Shown here: in pieces, positions 6,349 through 55,199 of the stretch
How positions within the stretch are numbered: the stretch's first letter is position 1
Layout: every line of letters starts with the position of its first letter
NCBI RefSeq assembly: GCF_000723205.1
Contig: NZ_HG315671.1
Coordinates: 1,461,351 to 1,525,350 of the forward strand
DNA from: Formosa agariphila KMM 3901
GTDB taxonomy: Bacteria > Bacteroidota > Bacteroidia > Flavobacteriales > Flavobacteriaceae
DNA: 64,000 nt
Direction of reading: 5' to 3'
Program-made: the position numbers and the translations under genes
Notes under the pieces: generated by a model
Databases searched by the model: none
Told to the model about the DNA's origin: nothing
The model's input: only the letters and a program-made list of their open reading frames with translations

Positions 6349-6743
6349 TTAATATTAATCTGAAAATAAACATTTATATAATGTTCAAATGTAAGTTGAC
6401 TAATACAGAATTGATACCCGATAAACATAAAATATATGTTAATTCGTAAACTGTGAATTTAAATCCTAATATGGTATTGAATTATTAAATAATGTTTTAT
6501 TGATTTGCATTTATTCTAGTTCTGGAATTGTCTGTTTTAGCGATTTTGTTTTTCAGCTATAGGTTTCTAATAAAATAAATAGACAATTAAATAATGGATA
6601 GCATAGTGGTAATGAAAGTGTAAAGAAACTAAGAACGAATAATTTAATATTAAATAATATGTAGAGATGTTAATTTAATATGATAATGTTAATACAAATA
6701 ATCTAATTTTAGTCTTAAAAATACGATATTTGTATTTGAATTT

Positions 6744-6846
6744 GCGCAAAGGATAGAAGTGGCATCCTTTTTTAATGCTTTTTAATTAAAAAAAGATATA
6801 ACGGATAGCCTGACTTTTTTAGTGGTTATTACTAAAAAAGATGCGC
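6744..6846 (+). ncRNA. Structured RNA-like element, copy A
   Basis: This is about 103 nt with nested pairing. GCGCA (6744-6748) pairs with TGCGC (6842-6846). AAAGGAT (6748-6754) can pair with ATCCTTT (6764-6770). CTTTTTTAGT (6814-6823) pairs perfectly with ACTAAAAAAG (6831-6840). Alternatively GGCATCC (6761-6767) pairs with GGATAGCC (6803-6810), giving one long bulged hairpin. The core GGATnGnAGnGGCATCC, AAAAAGATATA, AGCCnGACTTTTTT and the tail CCCTAAAA recur on the minus strand at 15666-15757. It may be a known flavobacterial RNA (Flavo-1 or 6S-Flavo type) or a dispersed repeat. The rest of the gap 6349-6743 is AT-rich with nothing recognisable. Confidence 0.45.
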
Positions 6847-15665: not shown

Positions 15666-15757
15666 TTAGGGAGTTCCTTTTTTTGAATAAAAAAGTCGGG
15701 CTTTACGCTATATCTTTTTATTGAAAAGTATAAAAAGGATGCCGCTGCAATCCCTAA
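15666..15757 (-). ncRNA. Structured RNA-like element, copy B
   Basis: On the minus strand the element starts TTAGGGA (15757-15751) and ends TCCCTAA (15672-15666), a perfect 7-bp closing stem. Inside are GGATTGCAGCGGCATCC (15753-15737), then AAAAAGATATA, then AAAGCCCGACTTTTTT. All match the core of the element at 6744-6846, while the closing stems differ in sequence but both still pair, which argues for a conserved structure. It begins about 2 bp after the stop of the MFS gene 15759-16982 and may be its 3' UTR or terminator. Confidence 0.45.
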
Positions 15758-15758
15758 C

Positions 15759-16982
15759 TCAATGCCATTTAAGATTAAATCGTCTGTATAAAATATGGCG
15801 TTTCATTAAAATAAATGTTGCGAGAGATAAACTACCGCAAATAGAAAACCCTAAAAATAGAGGTAAGGCTGTATCCGTCATAAAACTACCAATAAACGTT
15901 GCAATAGGAATAGCAATTAATGTGGCCATAAAGCCCGTTATAGCTGCTCCAATACCAGCAATATGCCCAATAGGCTCCATGGCAATAGCTCTAATATTTC
16001 CAAAAATAAAACCTAACGAAAAGAATATTCCAACCAAAAATGGTAATAACACTGTTAATTCAGGATTAGGTTTGTTCCAGAATAGAATGGCATATATAGT
16101 AGATATTAAACTAAATATACATAACGCTATAAAAGCTAAGCGACGCATTCCAATACGTACTACTAACGTACCGTTCAATAAAGTAGATAAACCTATAGAT
16201 GTTGCCAGACCAGCAAACACATACGGGAATTTATCTCCCAAACCATATTGGTCTTCAAACACGTGTTGAGACGAACTCAAATAGACCATAAAAGCACCGG
16301 TAATAAAACCAGAAACCACTGTAAAAGCCATAGCTTCTTTGTGTCTCACTAATTCTTTAAAACCTTTTACATAAACGTGTCTGTTAAAAGGGATTTTAAA
16401 CTCAGGATGTAAGGTTTCTTTCTGTCGTTTCCAAAACCAAATGGTAACCACAATAGCAAAAAAGATTTGCGTATAAAATATAGTTTGCCAATTGAAATGA
16501 GACAAGATAAACTGTCCTAGCGCTGGTGCAATTACTGGAACGAGAATAAAAAAAGCGGTTACAAACGACATCATCCGTGCCATATAATCTCCTTTATGAG
16601 AATCTCTAATTATAGAAATACAAATTGTTCTTGGTGCAGCTAATCCAATACCTTGAAATACACGTCCAATTAGCATCGCTTCTAAAGACGTGGAAAATAT
16701 ACAAACCAAACTAGCTATAATAAAAATACCGAAACCGGCATACATTAACGGCTTTCTTCCAAAACTGTCAGATAAAGGACCTAGAATTAACTGTCCAATT
16801 CCAAACCCAAGAAAAATCATGGTAACTAACGACTGTAAATCGGTACTGTTTTGATTACCAATTGCTATCCCGATTTCTGGAAAAGCAGGTAATAATGCGT
16901 CTATAGCAAGTGCTACAATAGACATTAGGGAAGCCATTAACGCAACAAACTCAAATTGGTATTTCTTTGTGGTATTTTGCAT
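15759..16982 (-). CDS. Bcr/CflA-family multidrug efflux MFS transporter
   Basis: A 407-residue inner-membrane drug:H+ antiporter with about 12 helices. ALAIDALLPAFPEIG in helix 1, then GQLILGPLSDSFGRKPLMYAG (the loop 2-3 motif GPLSDxxGRKP) and GLAAPRTICISIIRD match the Bcr/CflA group, which exports bicyclomycin, chloramphenicol and similar compounds. The start is the ATG at 16980-16982. The stop (TGA, 15759-15761) adjoins the structured element copy B. The physiological substrate is unknown. Confidence 0.88.
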   Translation of the reverse strand: MQNTTKKYQFEFVALMASLMSIVALAIDALLPAFPEIGIAIGNQNSTDLQSLVTMIFLGFGIGQLILGPLSDSFGRKPLMYAGFGIFIIASLVCIFSTSLEAMLIGRVFQGIGLAAPRTICISIIRDSHKGDYMARMMSFVTAFFILVPVIAPALGQFILSHFNWQTIFYTQIFFAIVVTIWFWKRQKETLHPEFKIPFNRHVYVKGFKELVRHKEAMAFTVVSGFITGAFMVYLSSSQHVFEDQYGLGDKFPYVFAGLATSIGLSTLLNGTLVVRIGMRRLAFIALCIFSLISTIYAILFWNKPNPELTVLLPFLVGIFFSLGFIFGNIRAIAMEPIGHIAGIGAAITGFMATLIAIPIATFIGSFMTDTALPLFLGFSICGSLSLATFILMKRHILYRRFNLKWH

Positions 16983-46394: not shown

Positions 46395-49300
46395 TTGAAA
46401 ATCAAAACAGTACTTGTCGCCAATCGCGGTGAAATAGCCATAAGAATCTTTAGGGCTTGCACAGAAATTAACGTTAAAACTATTGGAATATACACCTTCG
46501 AGGATCGGTATTCGTTACACCGTTATAAAGCCGATGAATCGTATCAAATAGGCGAAGATAACGAACCATTAAAACCCTATTTAAATATTGAAGGTATTAT
46601 AAAGGTGGCTATTGAAAATGGTGCAGATGCTATTCATCCGGGCTATGGCTTTTTATCAGAAAACGCCAATTTCGCTAAAGCTTGCGAAGACAATGGTATT
46701 ATTTTTATCGGACCAAAAGTTTCGGTATTGCAATCGTTGGGCGATAAAATTATGGCAAAAACGGTCGCCGTAGAAAACAATATTCCTATAATACGAAGTA
46801 ATAGTAAACCATTAACCGATATAGATATAGCCTTATCTGAAGCCGAAATTATTGGGTATCCCATAATGCTAAAAGCGGCTTCTGGTGGTGGCGGACGAGG
46901 AATGCGAGTGATAAGAAAAGCCGATGAATTAAAAAGTGCTTTTAACGAAAGTAAACGGGAAGCCTTAAATGCCTTTGGTGATGATACGGTGTTTCTAGAA
47001 AAATATGTAGAGAATCCGAAACATATAGAAATTCAAATTGTAGCCGATAACCATGGTAATATGGTGCATTTGTTTGAACGCGATTGCTCGGTACAACGGC
47101 GTTATCAAAAAGTAATCGAGTTTGCACCTTCTTTTGATTTGAGTGAAGAAACAAAACAGGCACTTTACAATTATGCACTTAAAATATGTAAAGCCGTAAA
47201 TTATAATAATATTGGTACGGTTGAATTTTTAGTTGAAAATGACGAAATCTATTTTATAGAAGTTAACCCAAGAGTTCAAGTAGAACATACGGTTACCGAA
47301 GTTGTAACAAATATAGATTTAATAAAGGCACAGCTTTTTATAGCTGGTGGTTATAAACTATCTGACGAGCAAATTAAAATCCCGAGTCAAGATGCCATAA
47401 AAATAAGTGGCTATGCGTTACAGTGCCGAATTACAACAGAAGACCCTAAAAACGATTTCAAACCCGATTATGGAACGGTGTCTGCCTACCGGAGCGCCGC
47501 TGGGTTTGGAATTCGCTTAGATGCAGGAAGTATTTATCAGGGTGCTGTAATATCGCCTTTCTTCGATTCTATGCTGGTTAAAGTAACGGCACATGGAAGA
47601 ACATTAGACGGTGCAAGTCGTAAAATTCGTCGTGCTTTAGCCGAGTTTAGAATTCGTGGTGTTAAAACCAACATGCCTTTTCTTGATAATATTTTAAAAC
47701 ATGAAACCTTTAGGCAAGGAAAGGTAACGGTAAATTTCATTAAAGCAAACTCTGATTTATTTGTATTTAAAGCACCTAAAAATAGAGCCACAAAGTTAAT
47801 TACGTACTTAGGCGATGTTGTAGTTAATGGAAATGCCGATGTTAAAAAAGTAGAATTAGGTAAAACATTTATAAAACCTAAAGTGCCGAAATTCGATTCT
47901 AATGCAGCATATCCAGAAGGTACAAAAGATCTTTTAACCAAGTTAGGTCCAGATAAATTTTCGGAATGGTTAAAAAACGAAAAACAGGTACATTTTACAG
48001 ATACTACCATGCGAGATGCACACCAAAGTCTGTTGGCTACACGTATGCGAACATTTGATATGCTAAAAGTAGCGGAAGGTTATGCTAAGAACCATCCTGA
48101 AATTTTTAGTATGGAAGTTTGGGGTGGTGCCACTTTTGATGTGTGCTTACGTTTCCTTCAGGAAAACCCTTGGGAAAGATTGCAATTGTTGCGTAAAGCC
48201 ATGCCTAATGTCCTGTTACAAATGCTTATTCGAGGTTCAAACGGTGTAGGCTATAAAGCCTATTCAGATAATTTAATAGGTGAATTTGTAGAACAGTCTT
48301 GGGAAAATGGCGTAGATGTATTTAGAATTTTTGATTCGTTGAATTGGATGAAATCCTTAGCACCATGTATAGAACATGTACGCACTAGAACTGGCGGATT
48401 AGCAGAAGGTTCTATTTGTTATACTAACGATATTTTAAATCCAGAAAACACAAAATACAACCTGAACTATTATATTAATCTAGCTAAAGAAATTGAAGGA
48501 GCCGGCGCTCATATTTTAGGTGTAAAAGACATGGCTGGTTTATTAAAACCTTATGCGGCTTACGAGTTAATTTCGGCTTTAAAATCGGAGATTAATATTC
48601 CTATTCATTTACATACACATGATACATCGTCTATTCAATCTGCGACGTATTTAAAAGCGATTGAAGCGGGTGTAGATGTGGTAGATGTGGCTTTAGGTGG
48701 TTTGTCTGGCTTAACGTCGCAGCCTAATTTTAATTCGGTTGTAGAGATGTTAAAATATCAAGATCGTGCAAGTCCAATTAATATCGATTCTTTAAACGAA
48801 TATTCTAACTATTGGGAAACTGTTAGAACTTATTATTATCCGTTCGAGTCGGGATTAAAGTCGGGCTCGGGCGATGTGTTTAAACATGAAATTCCAGGTG
48901 GACAATATTCTAATTTAAAACCGCAAGCTCAAGCCTTAGGATTGGAAAGTCGTTTTCATGAAATCACTAAAATGTACGGGGAAGTGAATACCCTTTTTGG
49001 AGATATAGTTAAAGTTACTCCAAGTTCTAAAGTCGTGGGTGATATGGCACAATATCTAGTAAGTAATAATTTAACTATTCAGGATGTTTTAGAAAAAGGA
49101 GAAAATATATCTTTTCCTCAATCTGTAGTCGATTTTTTTAAAGGGGATCTCGGTCAACCCGTTGGTGGTTTTCCTAAAAAGATTCAACAAATTATTTTAA
49201 AAGATCAAGTGCCATATACAGACCGTCCCAATGCTCATATACCACCATTAGATTTAGAAGAAGAATATAAAGCGTTTAAAAAGACTTTCGAGCAAGAGTT

Positions 49301-49844
49301 AAGTAGAAAAATAAATTATACAGATTTCTTATCGTATCAACTCTATCCAAAGGTATTTACAGATGCATTTAATAAGCATTTAAAATATGATAACCTGATG
49401 AATTTACCGACTAAAAATTTCTTTTATGGTATGGATTTGGGAGAGGAAATTATTGTAGAATTAGATAAGGGAAAGACGCTGTTAATTACATTAGAATCTA
49501 TAGGAAAACCTAATTATGAAGGCCTCGTTACGGTATACTTTAAAGTGAACGGGCAGGGGAGAACGGTACAGATAAAAGATGATTCTATTAAGGTGGATAA
49601 AATTGAACATGTAAAAGTAGATAAATCCGATAGCAAACAGATAGGCGCCCCATTACAAGGTATGTTATCTACTATATTAGTGAAAGCGGGTGATAAAGTC
49701 ATTAAAAATCAACCCTTGTTTATTATTGAAGCGATGAAAATGGAAACCACAATGACGGCAGCTACAGATGCTGTAGTAAAAAAGGTTATTATAAAACCAG
49801 GAATTATGGTTAATTCCGACGACTTAGTTATTGTAATGGAATAA
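46395..49844 (+). CDS. pyc: Pyruvate carboxylase
   Basis: A 1149-residue biotin enzyme that converts pyruvate to oxaloacetate. The N-terminal biotin carboxylase domain covers about 1-455 ([56 protein letters not shown]). The carboxyltransferase domain runs from about 530 (VHFTDTTMRDAHQSLLATRMRTFDM cut to FTDTTMRDAHQSLLATRM) to 1000. The C-terminal biotinyl domain ends with FIIEAMKMETTM. The start is TTG (46395-46397): an in-frame TAA at 46380-46382 and no ATG or GTG between show that no other start exists. Sits upstream of nrdBA, convergent, with a terminator between. Confidence 0.95.
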   Translation: MKIKTVLVANRGEIAIRIFRACTEINVKTIGIYTFEDRYSLHRYKADESYQIGEDNEPLKPYLNIEGIIKVAIENGADAIHPGYGFLSENANFAKACEDNGIIFIGPKVSVLQSLGDKIMAKTVAVENNIPIIRSNSKPLTDIDIALSEAEIIGYPIMLKAASGGGGRGMRVIRKADELKSAFNESKREALNAFGDDTVFLEKYVENPKHIEIQIVADNHGNMVHLFERDCSVQRRYQKVIEFAPSFDLSEETKQALYNYALKICKAVNYNNIGTVEFLVENDEIYFIEVNPRVQVEHTVTEVVTNIDLIKAQLFIAGGYKLSDEQIKIPSQDAIKISGYALQCRITTEDPKNDFKPDYGTVSAYRSAAGFGIRLDAGSIYQGAVISPFFDSMLVKVTAHGRTLDGASRKIRRALAEFRIRGVKTNMPFLDNILKHETFRQGKVTVNFIKANSDLFVFKAPKNRATKLITYLGDVVVNGNADVKKVELGKTFIKPKVPKFDSNAAYPEGTKDLLTKLGPDKFSEWLKNEKQVHFTDTTMRDAHQSLLATRMRTFDMLKVAEGYAKNHPEIFSMEVWGGATFDVCLRFLQENPWERLQLLRKAMPNVLLQMLIRGSNGVGYKAYSDNLIGEFVEQSWENGVDVFRIFDSLNWMKSLAPCIEHVRTRTGGLAEGSICYTNDILNPENTKYNLNYYINLAKEIEGAGAHILGVKDMAGLLKPYAAYELISALKSEINIPIHLHTHDTSSIQSATYLKAIEAGVDVVDVALGGLSGLTSQPNFNSVVEMLKYQDRASPINIDSLNEYSNYWETVRTYYYPFESGLKSGSGDVFKHEIPGGQYSNLKPQAQALGLESRFHEITKMYGEVNTLFGDIVKVTPSSKVVGDMAQYLVSNNLTIQDVLEKGENISFPQSVVDFFKGDLGQPVGGFPKKIQQIILKDQVPYTDRPNAHIPPLDLEEEYKAFKKTFEQELSRKINYTDFLSYQLYPKVFTDAFNKHLKYDNLMNLPTKNFFYGMDLGEEIIVELDKGKTLLITLESIGKPNYEGLVTVYFKVNGQGRTVQIKDDSIKVDKIEHVKVDKSDSKQIGAPLQGMLSTILVKAGDKVIKNQPLFIIEAMKMETTMTAATDAVVKKVIIKPGIMVNSDDLVIVME

Positions 49845-49860
49845 GTAAGTCTATATAAAT

Positions 49861-49900
49861 AAAACACCCTCAGACGTTATATTAGTCTAAGGGTGTTTTT
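49861..49900. terminator. Bidirectional terminator between pyc and nrdA
   Basis: AAAACACCC (49861-49869) pairs with GGGTGTTTT, and CAGAC with GTCT(A), with one mismatch. A T run follows on the plus strand and an A run precedes it, so both convergent genes can use it. Confidence 0.8.
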
Positions 49901-49932
49901 ATGTCGTATTTGTTTCTATAAACTAAGTTAAA

Positions 49933-51729
49933 TTACGCTTCGCAACTTGCACAATCTTTCTTTTGTTTGAATTTCTGCGCCGCATTCATACTATGTTGAT
50001 AATACAATGATTTTAATCCTAATTTCCAAGCATTAATATGTATTTTATTAATGTCTTTTGTTGGCATATCTGGATGTACAATAATGTTTAAAGATTGTCC
50101 TTGGTCGATATGGTTTTGTCTGTTCGCTGCTTGGTAAATAATATCCATTTGGTCTATTTCCGAATAGGTTTTAAATACCGCCTTTTCATGGTCTGATAAG
50201 AAATCTAAGTGCTGTACAGAACCATCTCTACTTCTAATGTCGTTCCAAACTTCAGGAGTATTCATACCTTTTTCTTCTAGAAGATTAACCAAGTATGGAT
50301 TTTTAATAGTGGTTTTAATTTTAGCAATATCCTTTACATAAATGTTAGACCAAATTGGTTCTATACCTTGAGATACTTGTCCTAAAATAAATGCTGAAGA
50401 TGTAGTTGGTGCAATCGCATTTAGAGTCGCATTTCTACGTCCGTATCCTTTAAGAAGGTCTGGTTCTCCTAATGCTGTAGCAAGTTCTTCTGAAGCTTTA
50501 TAAGAACGCTCTTTTATGGTTTTAAATATCTCACTATTTAAGTTAAACGCTTCTTGACTGTCAAAAGACAACGATTTAGATTGTAATAACGAATGCCATC
50601 CTAAAACCCCTAAACCTAAAGCTCTGTTTTCTTTAGCGAAGTTATAAGCGCGCTCCATAAATAAGAACGTTTGGCGGTCTTCACGGCTGTCGGAATCTCT
50701 ATAAGATTCTAATTTTTCTAAAAATTCTGAAATTACAGCATCTAAAAAGTACACCATAGTTTCTACGGCGTCTGTATCTTTCCACTTGTCGTAATTAAGT
50801 AAATTTATACTAGAAAGTACACAAACAAACGACCAGTTTTCGTCTGACGGCAACATGATTTCTGTACATAAATTACTCGCGTAAATCGGATGATTTTTGT
50901 CTTTGTACACATCTACAGAACCTTCATTAGCATTATCTGTAAAGAAGATATATGGGTAACCCATTTCACCTCTACTTTGTAATACTTTCGCCCAAACTGT
51001 ACGTTTTTCAACATCACCATCAATCATAGACTGCATCCACGCATTGGTTACCGTAACCCCGTGCGTTAACTCTTGGATAGCATTTCCTTCAGACCCAATT
51101 TCTAAAAACTCCATAATATCTTTATGGTCTATTGGTAAGTACGGAGAGAAACGACCACGACGTACAGAACCTTGACTTACAACATCGACCATAGATTCGA
51201 AAAGACGCATAATATGCACAGCTCCTGATGCTGTTCCGTTATTCTTTACTTCGGCTCCTCTGTGACGGATTTTACCAAAGTATCCAGATGTTCCACCACC
51301 AAGTTTAGACATCATTCCAATTTCAGATTGGGTAAACAAGATGTTTCCCATATCGTCGTCTATATGCGAACCAAAACAGCTAATCGGTAAGCCACGTTTT
51401 TGTCCGAAATTAGACCAAACAGGAGAGGCTAGCGAATAAAAACCTTGAGACATATAGTTGTAAAATTTATCGCTAAAGCCAGGCATTTTTAAAATGTCTT
51501 GCGCGCAATCTGCAATTTCTCTAATACGCTCTTCTGGATTTACACCTTCTGTAAGGTATCCCGATTCTAAAAATTTACGGCTATTTTCGTTTAACCACCC
51601 AAAGGAATCATTTTCTATGGTACCGTTTTTAGTGTGTAATGCCGCGTGCCTAGCATCGACTAAATTTTGAGCATTATTTTTTTCTGATGTTGTTGTAACA
51701 GGGTCTTGATTGTAAGTGTTGTTTTCCAT
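49933..51729 (-). CDS. nrdA: Ribonucleoside-diphosphate reductase, alpha subunit (no ATP-cone)
   Basis: A 598-residue catalytic subunit of class I RNR. Landmarks are LPISCFGSH (first redox Cys), SNLCTEI (second Cys), ENWSFVCVLSSINL (thiyl-radical Cys region), the allosteric and substrate loops GSVRRGRFSPYLPIDHKDI and ATLNAIAPTTSSAFI, and the C-terminal DCASCEA tail that reduces the active-site disulfide. The N-terminal ATP-cone of typical NrdA (about 100 residues) is missing and instead sits on NrdB. It is the second gene, 3 bp after nrdB, under the upstream B12 riboswitch. Confidence 0.93.
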   Translation of the reverse strand: MENNTYNQDPVTTTSEKNNAQNLVDARHAALHTKNGTIENDSFGWLNENSRKFLESGYLTEGVNPEERIREIADCAQDILKMPGFSDKFYNYMSQGFYSLASPVWSNFGQKRGLPISCFGSHIDDDMGNILFTQSEIGMMSKLGGGTSGYFGKIRHRGAEVKNNGTASGAVHIMRLFESMVDVVSQGSVRRGRFSPYLPIDHKDIMEFLEIGSEGNAIQELTHGVTVTNAWMQSMIDGDVEKRTVWAKVLQSRGEMGYPYIFFTDNANEGSVDVYKDKNHPIYASNLCTEIMLPSDENWSFVCVLSSINLLNYDKWKDTDAVETMVYFLDAVISEFLEKLESYRDSDSREDRQTFLFMERAYNFAKENRALGLGVLGWHSLLQSKSLSFDSQEAFNLNSEIFKTIKERSYKASEELATALGEPDLLKGYGRRNATLNAIAPTTSSAFILGQVSQGIEPIWSNIYVKDIAKIKTTIKNPYLVNLLEEKGMNTPEVWNDIRSRDGSVQHLDFLSDHEKAVFKTYSEIDQMDIIYQAANRQNHIDQGQSLNIIVHPDMPTKDINKIHINAWKLGLKSLYYQHSMNAAQKFKQKKDCASCEA

Positions 51730-51732
51730 TTT

Positions 51733-53016
51733 TTAAAATAAGTCGTCGCTAGTTATACTTTGGGCTCTTTTACTGTAATTTATTGAACGTTTAACAAAGA
51801 AGTCTCCATGTTTTGTTCCAATTATTTCGTCATCAAACCATTCCGTTTGAGCTAATAATTTCTGATCAATTTCAAATATTTTATTAATTCCAATACTCTC
51901 TAAAGAGTTATTAAATCGATTTTTAATGAATTCGTTTATTACCGCTTTCGGAATAAAATCTAATTCACCTTTTTCGAAAATCCAATCTATAATTTTACTT
52001 TCAGAACTATACGCTTCTTCACATAGTTGCTGAATCATAATCTTATACGTATCGTTAAACCATTCTGGGTGTTCGTCTTTAATGATATTGATAAGGTCGA
52101 TACCAAAATCGCCATGAATTTGTTCTTCTTTAGAGGTTGCTTCTACAACATTCGAAATTCCTTTAAGCATGTTTTTATGCTTGTTAAAAGCCATTATGAT
52201 AAGGAACTGAGAGAATAAAGACACATGTTCTATAAACAAAGAGAATAATAATACAGATTCTGCATACTCTTCGTTATTTTCGCTTTTTGCATTTTTTAAA
52301 GCCGTCTCTAAATACTGGACACGCTTCATTATTGCAGGCTTCTTCTTTAATTTTTCGAACTCACTATTTAATCCTAAAATTTCTAATAAGTGAGAATAGG
52401 CATCGTGATGTCTTACTTCACTTTCTGCAAATGTAGCACCTACAGATCCTATTTCTGGCTTAGGCATACGGTGATAAATATCACCCCAAAACGTTTTAAC
52501 AGCCACTTCTATTTGAGATATAGCAAGCATGGTGTTTTTAATAGCACTTTGTTCTACAGGTGTTAAAGCCGATTTAAAATCTTGGATGTCACTTGTGAAA
52601 TTAAATTCGGTATGAATCCAGTAGGAATGACGAATAGCTGGTACATATTCGTATAGTTGAGGGTACTCGTAAGGTTTTAAATTGATACGTTTTTCGAAAA
52701 TATTACTTTTTCTACTTTGCGTTTGGTTGTTTCTATAAATGATATACGCTTTGGCAACATCTACAAACTCACTATGCATTAGTTTTTTCTCGACAATATC
52801 TTGTACTTCTTCTACAGTAGGTACGTAATCTTTGTCTTGATCGCGACGCTCTAAAAGCTCGGCATATACATTTTTTGCTATTAATTCGGCATCATCACTT
52901 GTACCATGGTTAACGGCTTGCATTGCTTTTGTAACGGCAGCTGTAATTTTCTGAAGGTCAAAAGGTTTTGACTTAAAATTTCTTTTAATAATTTGAATTA
53001 TTTCCATGTTTACCAT
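51733..53016 (-). CDS. nrdB: Ribonucleoside-diphosphate reductase, beta subunit with N-terminal ATP-cone
   Basis: A 427-residue radical-generating subunit. An ATP-cone covers about residues 4-95 (IIKRNFKSKPFDLQKITAAV and the end HSEFVDVAKAYIIYRNN), which normally belongs to NrdA; this matches the NrdB type described from Leeuwenhoekiella blandensis, where the beta subunit carries the allosteric on/off switch. The dimetal ligands are Glu170, Glu200, His203, Glu263, Glu298 and His301, and a Tyr occupies the radical position (Tyr207). The ATG at 53016 is taken; another is 53007. First gene of the pair. Confidence 0.93.
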   Translation of the reverse strand: MVNMEIIQIIKRNFKSKPFDLQKITAAVTKAMQAVNHGTSDDAELIAKNVYAELLERRDQDKDYVPTVEEVQDIVEKKLMHSEFVDVAKAYIIYRNNQTQSRKSNIFEKRINLKPYEYPQLYEYVPAIRHSYWIHTEFNFTSDIQDFKSALTPVEQSAIKNTMLAISQIEVAVKTFWGDIYHRMPKPEIGSVGATFAESEVRHHDAYSHLLEILGLNSEFEKLKKKPAIMKRVQYLETALKNAKSENNEEYAESVLLFSLFIEHVSLFSQFLIIMAFNKHKNMLKGISNVVEATSKEEQIHGDFGIDLINIIKDEHPEWFNDTYKIMIQQLCEEAYSSESKIIDWIFEKGELDFIPKAVINEFIKNRFNNSLESIGINKIFEIDQKLLAQTEWFDDEIIGTKHGDFFVKRSINYSKRAQSITSDDLF

Positions 53017-53096
53017 ATTAAGTAGATTTAATAATCTTAAATAACCAATGTCTTGAACTCTAAAATAGCTTTAGATACAGGCATGAAACTTATTCT

Positions 53097-53240
53097 TCAG
53101 ATTTTAAACCATGAGTTGTTAATCCTAAATTTATTCGGTGCTGTAATAATTTTGGAAAAGAAGATAGAAGTAGATATGATAACTAGACATAAATGACCAT
53201 AGTAATCTTCTAATTCTTGCTTCAATCCCCGAAAGCACAT
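53097..53240 (-). CDS. Possible 47-residue protein downstream of the riboswitch
   Basis: An open frame starts at ATG 53238-53240, inside the last bases of the cobalamin riboswitch, and ends at TGA 53097-53099. The protein starts MCFRGLKQELEDYYGHLCL and ends with a hydrophobic then basic segment. No family is known to me. It could be a leader peptide linking riboswitch state to nrdB, or chance. The spacing between riboswitch and nrdB (226 bp) is otherwise unexplained. Confidence 0.25.
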   Translation of the reverse strand: MCFRGLKQELEDYYGHLCLVIISTSIFFSKIITAPNKFRINNSWFKI

Positions 53241-53242
53241 TG

Positions 53243-53418
53243 AATTAATGTTAAATGGCAGGTCTTCTGACTTACTCTGTTAACCCGGCCTTCCCATTCT
53301 ATTAAACAGTGACCATTATTGGGTTTCGTTTGTTGAGCATACAGCTGCGGGACAGTTCCGGATTTTCACCGAATTCCCTTTTAATATCAAGTTGTTAAAC
53401 TTAATAACCATTAATAAT
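53243..53418 (-). promoter_or_regulatory. Cobalamin (B12) riboswitch upstream of nrdBA
   Basis: Read on the minus strand the region contains the conserved series GGGAATTCGGTGAAAATCCG, ACTGTCCCGCAGCTGTATGC, GGGAAGGCCGGGT, ACAGAGTAAGTCAGAAGACC and TGCC, the core of the cobalamin riboswitch (B12 box and the CxGCCxxTGCxA-like loop region). ATTAATGG at 53408-53415 and CATTAAT at 53244-53250 can pair as the closing stem. The next gene on this strand is nrdB. Cobalamin binding would reduce nrdBA expression; the mechanism (termination or translation) cannot be read. Confidence 0.92.
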
Positions 53419-53424
53419 TGGATG

Positions 53425-53432
53425 CAAATTTA
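53425..53432 (-). promoter_or_regulatory. -7 box of the riboswitch-nrdBA transcript
   Basis: On the minus strand TAAATTTG matches TAnnTTTG. A start about seven bases later (near 53417) coincides with the 5' edge of the riboswitch. A -33 TTG at the right distance was not seen. Confidence 0.5.
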
Positions 53433-53559
53433 TCTACTATAAACAAGTTTTAATAATTAACTTATCATAACTTATTGACAATTTTAAAAAATAGTGTGAT
53501 AACCGTTTTAGTTTATTCAATTAGTAGATTACAAAGAGTATGTAAAGACTGAGTTACCT

Positions 53560-53979
53560 TTACTTTTGTTGTAACAAGTGTATGATGGTTTGTTGTAATG
53601 TGTGACCTAAATTTTTATCGTTTTTATGCTTTTTTATTTTACCAATTACTTTTATAAACTCATCACTATCTATTGGTTTTAATATATGTTCTAACGAGTT
53701 TTTATTAAAAATATTAGACGCGTAATGCGTATAAGTCGTGGTAATAACTAAATCGAAACCTTTAAAATTAAGTTGGTTTAAAAAAGGAAGTAATTCTTCT
53801 TTAGGCGTTTCTATATCTAAAAAGACACAGTCTGGCTTTAATTTGTTTATGGCAGAAATTGATTCTAAAGGATTAGAGAACATGTCACAGATGTTAACCT
53901 CGGGACAAAAAAGTTCAATTTCCCATTTTAGGTTTGTAAGAGCATTAAATTCATAATCAATAAGAATTGCATTAATCAT
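53560..53979 (-). CDS. Stand-alone receiver domain of LytTR type
   Basis: A 139-residue protein that is just a response-regulator receiver domain, like that of LytTR-family regulators. The phosphoacceptor is Asp55 (CVFLDIETP), a Thr follows near 80-81 and Lys100 precedes Pro in HILKPID. The acidic pair at the N-terminus is incomplete (ILIDYE: Asp8 then Tyr9 instead of Asp-Asp), so metal binding may be weak. No LytTR DNA-binding domain follows and no kinase is adjacent. It may act as a competitor or phosphate sink. Confidence 0.75.
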   Translation of the reverse strand: MINAILIDYEFNALTNLKWEIELFCPEVNICDMFSNPLESISAINKLKPDCVFLDIETPKEELLPFLNQLNFKGFDLVITTTYTHYASNIFNKNSLEHILKPIDSDEFIKVIGKIKKHKNDKNLGHTLQQTIIHLLQQK

Positions 53980-54263
53980 GGTAGTGTGGACAATTTTGAA
54001 TAAAAGTAATGTATAATTAATAAGTTCCAGTTTGTCTTTTTATATGTTGTGTAAATCTTAGTGCCGATGGGAGTAATTAGATTGTAATTGGTAGAATGAG
54101 TATACAGCGTTTTTTAAAAAACTAGCAGTAAGATTGAATATCATATTTTAAATTTTTAACGAAGGGCCTTTTGTAATGTGAACAAAAAGTAAAAAGATAG
54201 CAGATTCCCTTTCCCGATTCTATTTCTTACATTAGCAAAAGATTATGGATCATAATAAGCGGT

Positions 54264-55199
54264 ATGCATTTAATACAAGAAGAGGTGAATTTTAAAGCGG
54301 TAGTTCAGAATATTTATAAAGACGTTAAGGATATAGAAGATAAAGGAGAACTCGCTTCCTATATTCCAGAATTAGCGCGGATTGACTCTAAAAATTTTGG
54401 TGTGCACATTTCTACTATGGATCATTCTAATTTTGGAGTGGGTAACTGTTACGATAAATTCTCAATTCAAAGTATTGCCAAAGTATTGTCTTTAATTATG
54501 GCTTATAAAATTTTAGGTAAAAAAATATGGGAACGTGTCGATGTAGAGCCTTCAGGAAATGCGTTTAATTCACTTGTGCAGTTGGAAGCTGAAAATGGTA
54601 TCCCTAGAAATCCGTTTATTAATGCTGGAGCATTAGTTATATCTGATATCTTATTGAGTGAACTGGAACATCCTAAAGAAGAATTTTTAGCATTTGTAAG
54701 AGATATTGCCAATCAGCCAGAAATAGACTATTCAAGTAAGATTGCTGCCTCAGAAAAGAAAGTTGGGTATAGAAATATCGCGTTATGTAACTATATTAAA
54801 TCTTTAGGAAATATTAAAAATGAACCTGAAGATGTGTTAGATTTTTATTTTAATCTATGTTCTTTAGAAATGAACTGTATGGAACTGTCTCAATTATTTT
54901 TATTTCTAGCCAACAACGGTTGCAGAATTTCTGACCAACATCCTATATTAACAGAACAGCAATCTAAACGTATAAATGCACTCATGCAAACCTGTGGATT
55001 TTACGACGAATCTGGAGAATTTGCTTTTAGAGTGGGTTTGCCAGGAAAAAGTGGAGTTGGTGGCGGTATCGTTGCGGTACATCCCGATCGTTACGCTATT
55101 GCTGTGTGGAGTCCTAAACTGAATAAAAAAGGGAATTCTTATAAAGGCATGAAATTTCTAGAAGCTTTTACTACAGAATCTAAACAATCTATATTTTAA
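54264..55199 (+). CDS. glsA: Glutaminase
   Basis: A 311-residue serine-dependent beta-lactamase-fold enzyme that hydrolyses glutamine to glutamate and ammonia. The Ser-x-x-Lys motif is FSIQSIAKVLSL (Ser and Lys near 73 and 76). Further family blocks are EPSGNAFNSLVQLE, NPFINAGALVISD, CSLEMNCMELSQLF and GLPGKSGVGGGIVAV. Start is the ATG at 54264. Single gene, convergent to nothing, followed 200 bp later by the alginate lyase promoter. Confidence 0.93.
   Translation: MHLIQEEVNFKAVVQNIYKDVKDIEDKGELASYIPELARIDSKNFGVHISTMDHSNFGVGNCYDKFSIQSIAKVLSLIMAYKILGKKIWERVDVEPSGNAFNSLVQLEAENGIPRNPFINAGALVISDILLSELEHPKEEFLAFVRDIANQPEIDYSSKIAASEKKVGYRNIALCNYIKSLGNIKNEPEDVLDFYFNLCSLEMNCMELSQLFLFLANNGCRISDQHPILTEQQSKRINALMQTCGFYDESGEFAFRVGLPGKSGVGGGIVAVHPDRYAIAVWSPKLNKKGNSYKGMKFLEAFTTESKQSIF

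Follow-up and report, generated by a model that had tools for sequence, protein, structure and literature searches.

Why should a riboswitch that senses vitamin B12 precede the genes of a ribonucleotide reductase that works without B12? Cells cannot do without ribonucleotide reductase, and the metal cofactor it uses makes DNA synthesis dependent on what the surroundings supply. The locus in question lies in a stretch of 64,000 nucleotides of Formosa agariphila KMM 3901 DNA, which was analysed as a whole and is referred to as the window.

The riboswitch, the reductase and the B12-related genes of the genome

A scan of the whole window with the Rfam covariance models located a single cobalamin riboswitch (RF00174) on the minus strand, at positions 53427-53240. 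The match scores 111.4 bits (E 4.5e-27) against a gathering score of 31.5 bits and spans model positions 1-189 of 189, with both ends matched, which confirms the earlier claim that the riboswitch is complete; its first delimitation, 53243-53418, fell nine bases short at the 5' side and three at the 3' side. A chance or mis-called motif is ruled out by this score together with the conservation of the element in Formosa and Arenibacter. Two Flavo-1 RNAs (RF01705) also occur in the window, at 6739-6819 on the plus strand (60.9 bits) and at 15690-15763 on the minus strand (58.8 bits).

The open reading frame list and family matches agree with the original observation that the next genes on the same strand are nrdB and nrdA. 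nrdB (51733-53007, minus strand) encodes the radical-generating subunit and belongs to the NrdBi type with an N-terminal ATP-cone (PF03477, 78.0 bits) ahead of the R2 core (PF00268, 208.8 bits). Its start is set at 53016 in the open reading frame list, while the in-frame ATG at 53007 is the one that is conserved when five Formosa leaders are aligned and is therefore preferred. The closest solved chain to NrdB is 5olk (E 7.5e-217, residues 3-427). nrdA (49933-51729, minus strand) encodes the catalytic subunit, which matches TIGR02510 (NrdE-prime) at 762.9 bits against a cut-off of 602.25; a Pfam search found no PF03477 ATP-cone in this protein, and its closest solved chain is 6dqx. Judged by these matches, the nrdBA product is an oxygen-dependent, B12-independent class I reductase of the NrdAi/NrdBi type, kin to class Id. 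From the kinship of NrdB to 5olk and 6sf4, both of which we take to be chains from Leeuwenhoekiella blandensis, we infer a dimanganese cofactor.

A second, B12-dependent reductase had been predicted for this genome and was found. The assembly (G000), which is complete (4.23 Mb) and holds RF00174 riboswitches in three places, carries nrdJ at C1:805513-808068; its product of 851 amino acids scores 556.1 bits against the TIGR02504 cut-off of 399.95. A PF02867 search of the genome returned two large subunits only, the NrdA of the window and NrdJ. A same-strand riboswitch upstream of a B12-independent reductase and NrdJ are thus both present in one genome.

The other two RF00174 riboswitches precede genes for TonB-dependent receptors. 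The best NCBIfam match of both receptors is the B12 receptor family TIGR01779, at 108.8 and 104.2 bits against a cut-off of 599.7 bits, and the two proteins are likely BtuB. Beside one of these riboswitches, on the opposite strand, lie genes for a periplasmic binding protein (PF01497, with a weak BtuF match) and a FecCD-type permease. The corrin-synthesis marker CbiC, present in two of the six Formosa genomes, was not found in the genome of the window, and B12 is therefore probably acquired by uptake in this bacterium. The two Formosa genomes with CbiC have a further cobalamin riboswitch (L090 in G151, L094 in G013), about 5 kb from CbiC and in front of a gene with a thioredoxin-like [2Fe-2S] ferredoxin domain, the domain having been tested at L090.

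Anatomy of the nrdBA leader

In the alignment of Formosa nrd loci, the box TAAATTTG (53432-53425, minus strand) resembles TAnnTTTG, the motif at -7 in promoters of Bacteroidota. It is identical in four of the five aligned loci, and in G013 it differs at the last base. The box lies at the 5' edge of the aptamer, and the nrdBA transcript therefore probably begins there.

Just 3' of the aptamer stands a P13-like hairpin (53247-53211, minus strand; inner stem-loop 53219-53236) with TTTCGGGGATT as its loop region. The P13 element of cobalamin riboswitches is a downstream regulatory hairpin whose loop is able to dock on L5. Across 11 related riboswitches, the six pairs of the inner stem are paired in 66 of 66 cells and two of them have changes on both sides, so that the hairpin is supported by covariation in this alignment; the outer stem, TAATTC/GAATTA, was recognised by eye only. 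Similar stem-loops trail most of the other riboswitches compared, and in the btuB1 type an ATG follows immediately 3' of the stem-loop. By eye, the P13-like loop is complementary to L5 in some loci and not across all, and given this inconsistency we do not claim an L5-L13 pairing in every riboswitch. A P5 stem of CGTG, rather than a CCGG-like one, accompanies a P13 loop of TTCGCG, rather than TTCGGG, at L158, L173, L177, L195, L107, L112, L115, L129 and L118; this paired sequence change hints at contact between the P5 stem and the P13 loop.

The remainder of the leader (53210-53008, minus strand) was aligned and scanned for terminators. In the window, the end of the P13-like hairpin lies about 200 nt upstream of the nrdB start. 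Between B12 box and nrdB start, the Formosa loci have 148-249 nt, which are poorly conserved past the hairpin; in Arenibacter, this distance amounts to 548-565 nt at three loci and about 0.7 kb in G201. Two scans returned no terminator-like site in the window leader, and a looser hairpin scan gave two weak hairpins of -5.6 and -4.1 kcal/mol. An intrinsic terminator that could serve as the platform was thus not found in the window, and only some of the relatives have terminator-like hairpins. When up to 140 nt from the B12 box were compared with shuffled sequences, such hairpins stood out in three of nine nrd leaders: in G013, one of 60 shuffles was as low, and in A. certesii and A. amylolyticus none of 60 was; the other six gave no convincing terminator-like hairpin in this comparison. 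After the btuB2-type riboswitches, a terminator-like hairpin was found in three of four cases, for which 0, 1 and 5 of 60 shuffles reached an equally low value, as compared to 40 of 60 for the fourth; it stands out in G013 and G150, less clearly in G149, and not in G000.

A gene between riboswitch and nrdB was also considered and dismissed: the Arenibacter leaders of L158, L173 and L177 contain no same-strand open reading frame of at least 60 amino acids with an ATG start. In these three and in five Formosa leaders, ATG frames that end before nrdB reach 47 codons at most, and the longest of them, compared by eye, are not common between leaders. On the nrdB strand of the L195 leader, there are only TTG-start frames, of 53 and 60 amino acids.

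Distribution, association with NrdJ and origin

Four of the six Formosa genomes have this nrdBA, and the riboswitch stands in front of it in all four, which argues that its placement is not due to chance; with L102 as the fifth, it precedes nrdB in 5/5 Formosa nrdBA loci found. NrdJ exceeds the TIGR02504 cut-off in all six genomes, the five others scoring 554.4-559.6 bits. G150 and G152 are without this nrdBA; the class I NrdA that they do have is a different one, 825-829 amino acids long. G149 carries all three enzymes, and its other class I NrdA has an ATP-cone and passes TIGR02506. None of the listed riboswitches adjoins these other class I genes of the Formosa genomes.

The chromosomal site of the operon varies. 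In the window (46395-55199), nrdBA lies between genes for pyruvate carboxylase and glutaminase. At L102, L182 and L183, it is found about 0.5-3 kb from a tRNA-Leu, and these three loci share the same two downstream genes with L184, where a phage-integrase-family gene adjoins nrdBA. The riboswitch-nrdBA unit seems to have been relocated in Formosa chromosomes.

Beyond the genus, the arrangement is rare. Of 149 sampled genomes of the family, 41 have an NrdB match, which in 35 extends over the ATP-cone, and 30 of these 35 loci were scanned to about 1.5 kb on either side. A riboswitch was detected at two (G000 and G013, both Formosa), and the other 28 have none within 1.5 kb. In four of the five remaining genomes (G041 aside), riboswitch listings, one of them made with stricter filters, place the element on a different contig or at a distance of over 1 Mb. 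A set of named loci, the best 80 of 557 NrdB loci, was searched by sequence pattern, a method that retrieves 44 of 44 loci at which the covariance model places a riboswitch. Ten of the 80 have a riboswitch, each confirmed by the covariance model; the other 70 were covered by the pattern scan only, a few of them with short upstream flanks. The ten comprise two Formosa loci, three Arenibacter loci where a same-strand riboswitch lies about 550 nt upstream, and five loci at which it faces away from nrdBA. In the genus of A. certesii, this nrdB is present in 4 of 18 genomes, and by covariance model 4/4 Arenibacter nrdBA loci have a same-strand upstream riboswitch. A riboswitch before nrdBA is accordingly rare outside Formosa and Arenibacter.

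Similar to the Formosa element, the riboswitch of the Muricauda group belongs to RF00174 and lies near nrdBA; unlike it, the element points to metE. At L107, L112 and L115, it faces away from nrdBA toward a family-confirmed metE, about 0.3 kb upstream of nrdB. At L129, it is directed toward metE (recognised from the sequence start only), about 2.4 kb from nrdB with one gene between. At L118, a riboswitch facing away from nrdBA points to a thioesterase-superfamily gene.

If the riboswitch serves a choice between two reductases, NrdJ should accompany it. The search for NrdJ in the named set covered 47 genomes from 50 of the 80 loci. NrdJ was found in the three Arenibacter genomes and the one Formosa genome with riboswitch-nrdBA, in none of the five genomes with divergent riboswitches (L107, L112, L115, L129 and L118; close NrdJ counted), and in 11 of the 38 others, among which three further matches of 33-34% identity were not counted. 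Altogether, each of the seven distinct riboswitch-nrdBA genomes searched (G201 left out) has NrdJ, as compared to 12 of 28 riboswitch-free genomes with ATP-cone nrdB in the family sample (at least 53% identity); Fisher's test gives p 0.0075 for this difference, with the seven representing two genera only. Counted by lineage, the chance of both genera having NrdJ is 0.18 at the background rate. The association goes in the expected direction and is not proof. A general rule by which NrdJ plus nrdBA would imply a riboswitch is ruled out by the same 12 of 28 riboswitch-free genomes.

The riboswitches themselves bear on how this arrangement arose. Trees were built from 54 riboswitches, and separate IQ-TREE runs kept 51 of them, three long-branch rows being left out. 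The Formosa nrd riboswitches form a clade (99/94) within a group that also holds the btuB2 copies of Formosa together with two other riboswitches from genomes of the family (100/99), and the separate runs agree on placing Formosa nrd with Formosa btuB2. The Arenibacter nrd copies group with the Muricauda metE copies in the full alignment (97/98), as they also do when IQ-TREE is run on the full alignment; this grouping is absent from the free aptamer-only tree, in which enforcing it costs almost nothing (p 0.614). A single origin of the nrd riboswitches was not rejected by an AU test on 286 columns (p 0.494); in the IQ-TREE runs, it was rejected on the aptamer columns (AU p 0.029) and not on the full alignment (p 0.153). 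On balance, the trees favour two captures for the Formosa and Arenibacter nrd riboswitches, with one old origin of all of them as the weaker reading. We also lean, if only slightly, towards the broader view that class Id nrdBA came under B12 control at least twice in the Flavobacteriaceae, with Formosa capturing a btuB-like riboswitch and Arenibacter a metE-like one, both in the presence of NrdJ. Two captures would amount to a convergent choice between a manganese-type and a cobalt (B12) enzyme for making DNA precursors where B12 supply varies, and the capture of different riboswitches by the two genera would provide a natural replicate of regulatory evolution.

Proposed control of nrdBA and its alternatives

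We consider it probable that the riboswitch in the 5' leader controls the two-gene nrdBA operon and lowers its expression when B12 is plentiful. Under such control, abundant adenosylcobalamin would bind the aptamer, the P13 loop would dock on the ligand-bound aptamer and nrdBA output would fall, leaving deoxyribonucleotide synthesis to NrdJ. When B12 is scarce, NrdJ would be without its cofactor and nrdBA would be switched on. Support for this control comes from the full-length RF00174 match, the identity of nrdBA, the presence of NrdJ, the 5/5 Formosa and 4/4 Arenibacter loci, the covariation of the P13-like hairpin, the riboswitches at the receptor genes, the terminator-like hairpins of the btuB2 type, and precedents in Streptomyces and delta-proteobacteria. 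Counting against it are the window leader without a terminator, a P13 hairpin that, unlike that of the btuB1 type, lies far from the start, the many riboswitch-free relatives with both NrdJ and nrdBA (12/28 in the family sample, 11/38 in the named set), and the restriction of the NrdJ link to two genera.

How the switch would act on nrdBA depends on the leader. With some 200 nt between the end of the P13 hairpin and the nrdB start, we slightly prefer premature termination in the leader over a direct masking of the start site. A variant of the same control would be translational, with the start region sequestered over this distance and no termination involved. The window leader without a terminator suits this variant, as does the position of the btuB1-type P13 right at the ATG in the same genus, which suggests translation as one default of the family; yet the distance between hairpin and nrdB, as well as the terminator-like hairpins that stand out in 3/9 nrd leaders, speak against it, and we regard it as possible while inclining towards termination. 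More remote from B12 control is the idea that the riboswitch is a passenger, which arrived when part of a btuB promoter region was duplicated; it would still fold but hardly affect nrdBA, given a long leader that has no functional platform. Its clustering with the btuB2 riboswitches of Formosa would fit such an origin, and so would the missing terminator and the 148-249 nt between B12 box and nrdB with their poor conservation past the hairpin. However, aptamer and P13-like hairpin have been kept in 5/5 Formosa loci, including the differing chromosomal site of the window, the promoter-like box is exact in four of the five (again including the window), and the same arrangement recurs in a second genus, all of which makes a passenger improbable. 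We give very little credence to a short B12-dependent leader RNA acting in trans, or to a response to another cobamide form, with control of nrdBA being secondary: the length of the leader would fit, and the accessible text of PMC4991794 mentions a B12 riboswitch that acts on EutV, the eut response regulator, but a simple cis arrangement repeated in two genera argues otherwise.

If B12 control of nrdBA is indeed at work, a genome with B12-uptake-like genes appears to choose between a class Id-like enzyme and the cobalt-based NrdJ through one RNA, and cells lacking nrdJ would be expected to grow more slowly on added B12. The B12 riboswitch of Streptomyces coelicolor nrdABS was reportedly described by Borovok in 2006. 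According to the accessible text of one source (PMC4991794), it precedes the operon of a class I reductase, and NrdJ is encoded by the same genome. The Streptomyces system thus resembles that of Formosa in placing a class I operon beside NrdJ under a B12 riboswitch; it differs in that its enzyme is of class Ia with an AraC-like nrdS, whereas Formosa, a member of the Bacteroidota, has NrdAi/NrdBi with the ATP-cone on NrdB and the gene order nrdB-nrdA. The nrdDG genes encode a class III enzyme. B12-elements have been noted before nrdDG in Desulfovibrio vulgaris and Desulfuromonas, with NrdJ present (PMC545781, accessible text). These delta-proteobacteria belong to another phylum, but share with Formosa a B12-independent reductase under a B12 element, NrdJ and the same proposed logic.

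The nearest characterised relative of the nrdBA product is NrdAi/NrdBi of L. blandensis, an organism that likewise has a class II reductase (PMC5794259, accessible text); the words "riboswitch" and "B12" are absent from the main text of that paper. The accessible text of PMC3766115 recognises, as one class of genes in cobalamin regulons, those for isozymes of B12-dependent enzymes. Our search, which mostly did not extend to subscription journals, found no publication that connects the ATP-cone type of NrdB with a riboswitch and none joining Formosa, riboswitch and vitamin B12, and the accessible text of PMC2667541, PMC5962746 and PMC6461909 makes no mention of the arrangement in Bacteroidota. 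A B12 riboswitch on a B12-independent reductase beside NrdJ is already in print, and the Formosa case adds a well-supported example.

Upstream of the promoter-like box, four of the five Formosa loci have the palindrome ATGTTATTAACAT (L182:9015, L183:9552, L184:6473 and L102:3506), with a degenerate copy in the window. Allowing up to one mismatch, it is absent from ten stretches around nrdJ or other class I genes, and it may be a binding site of a second regulator. Directly upstream of the riboswitch, the window encodes a protein of 139 amino acids (53560-53979) that matches the first half of the response regulator BtsR, its Pfam receiver match being below cut-off. In G149, G150 and G152, longer relatives of this protein, with 244 amino acids (34-37% identity over about half the length), are encoded next to the other class I nrdAB genes.
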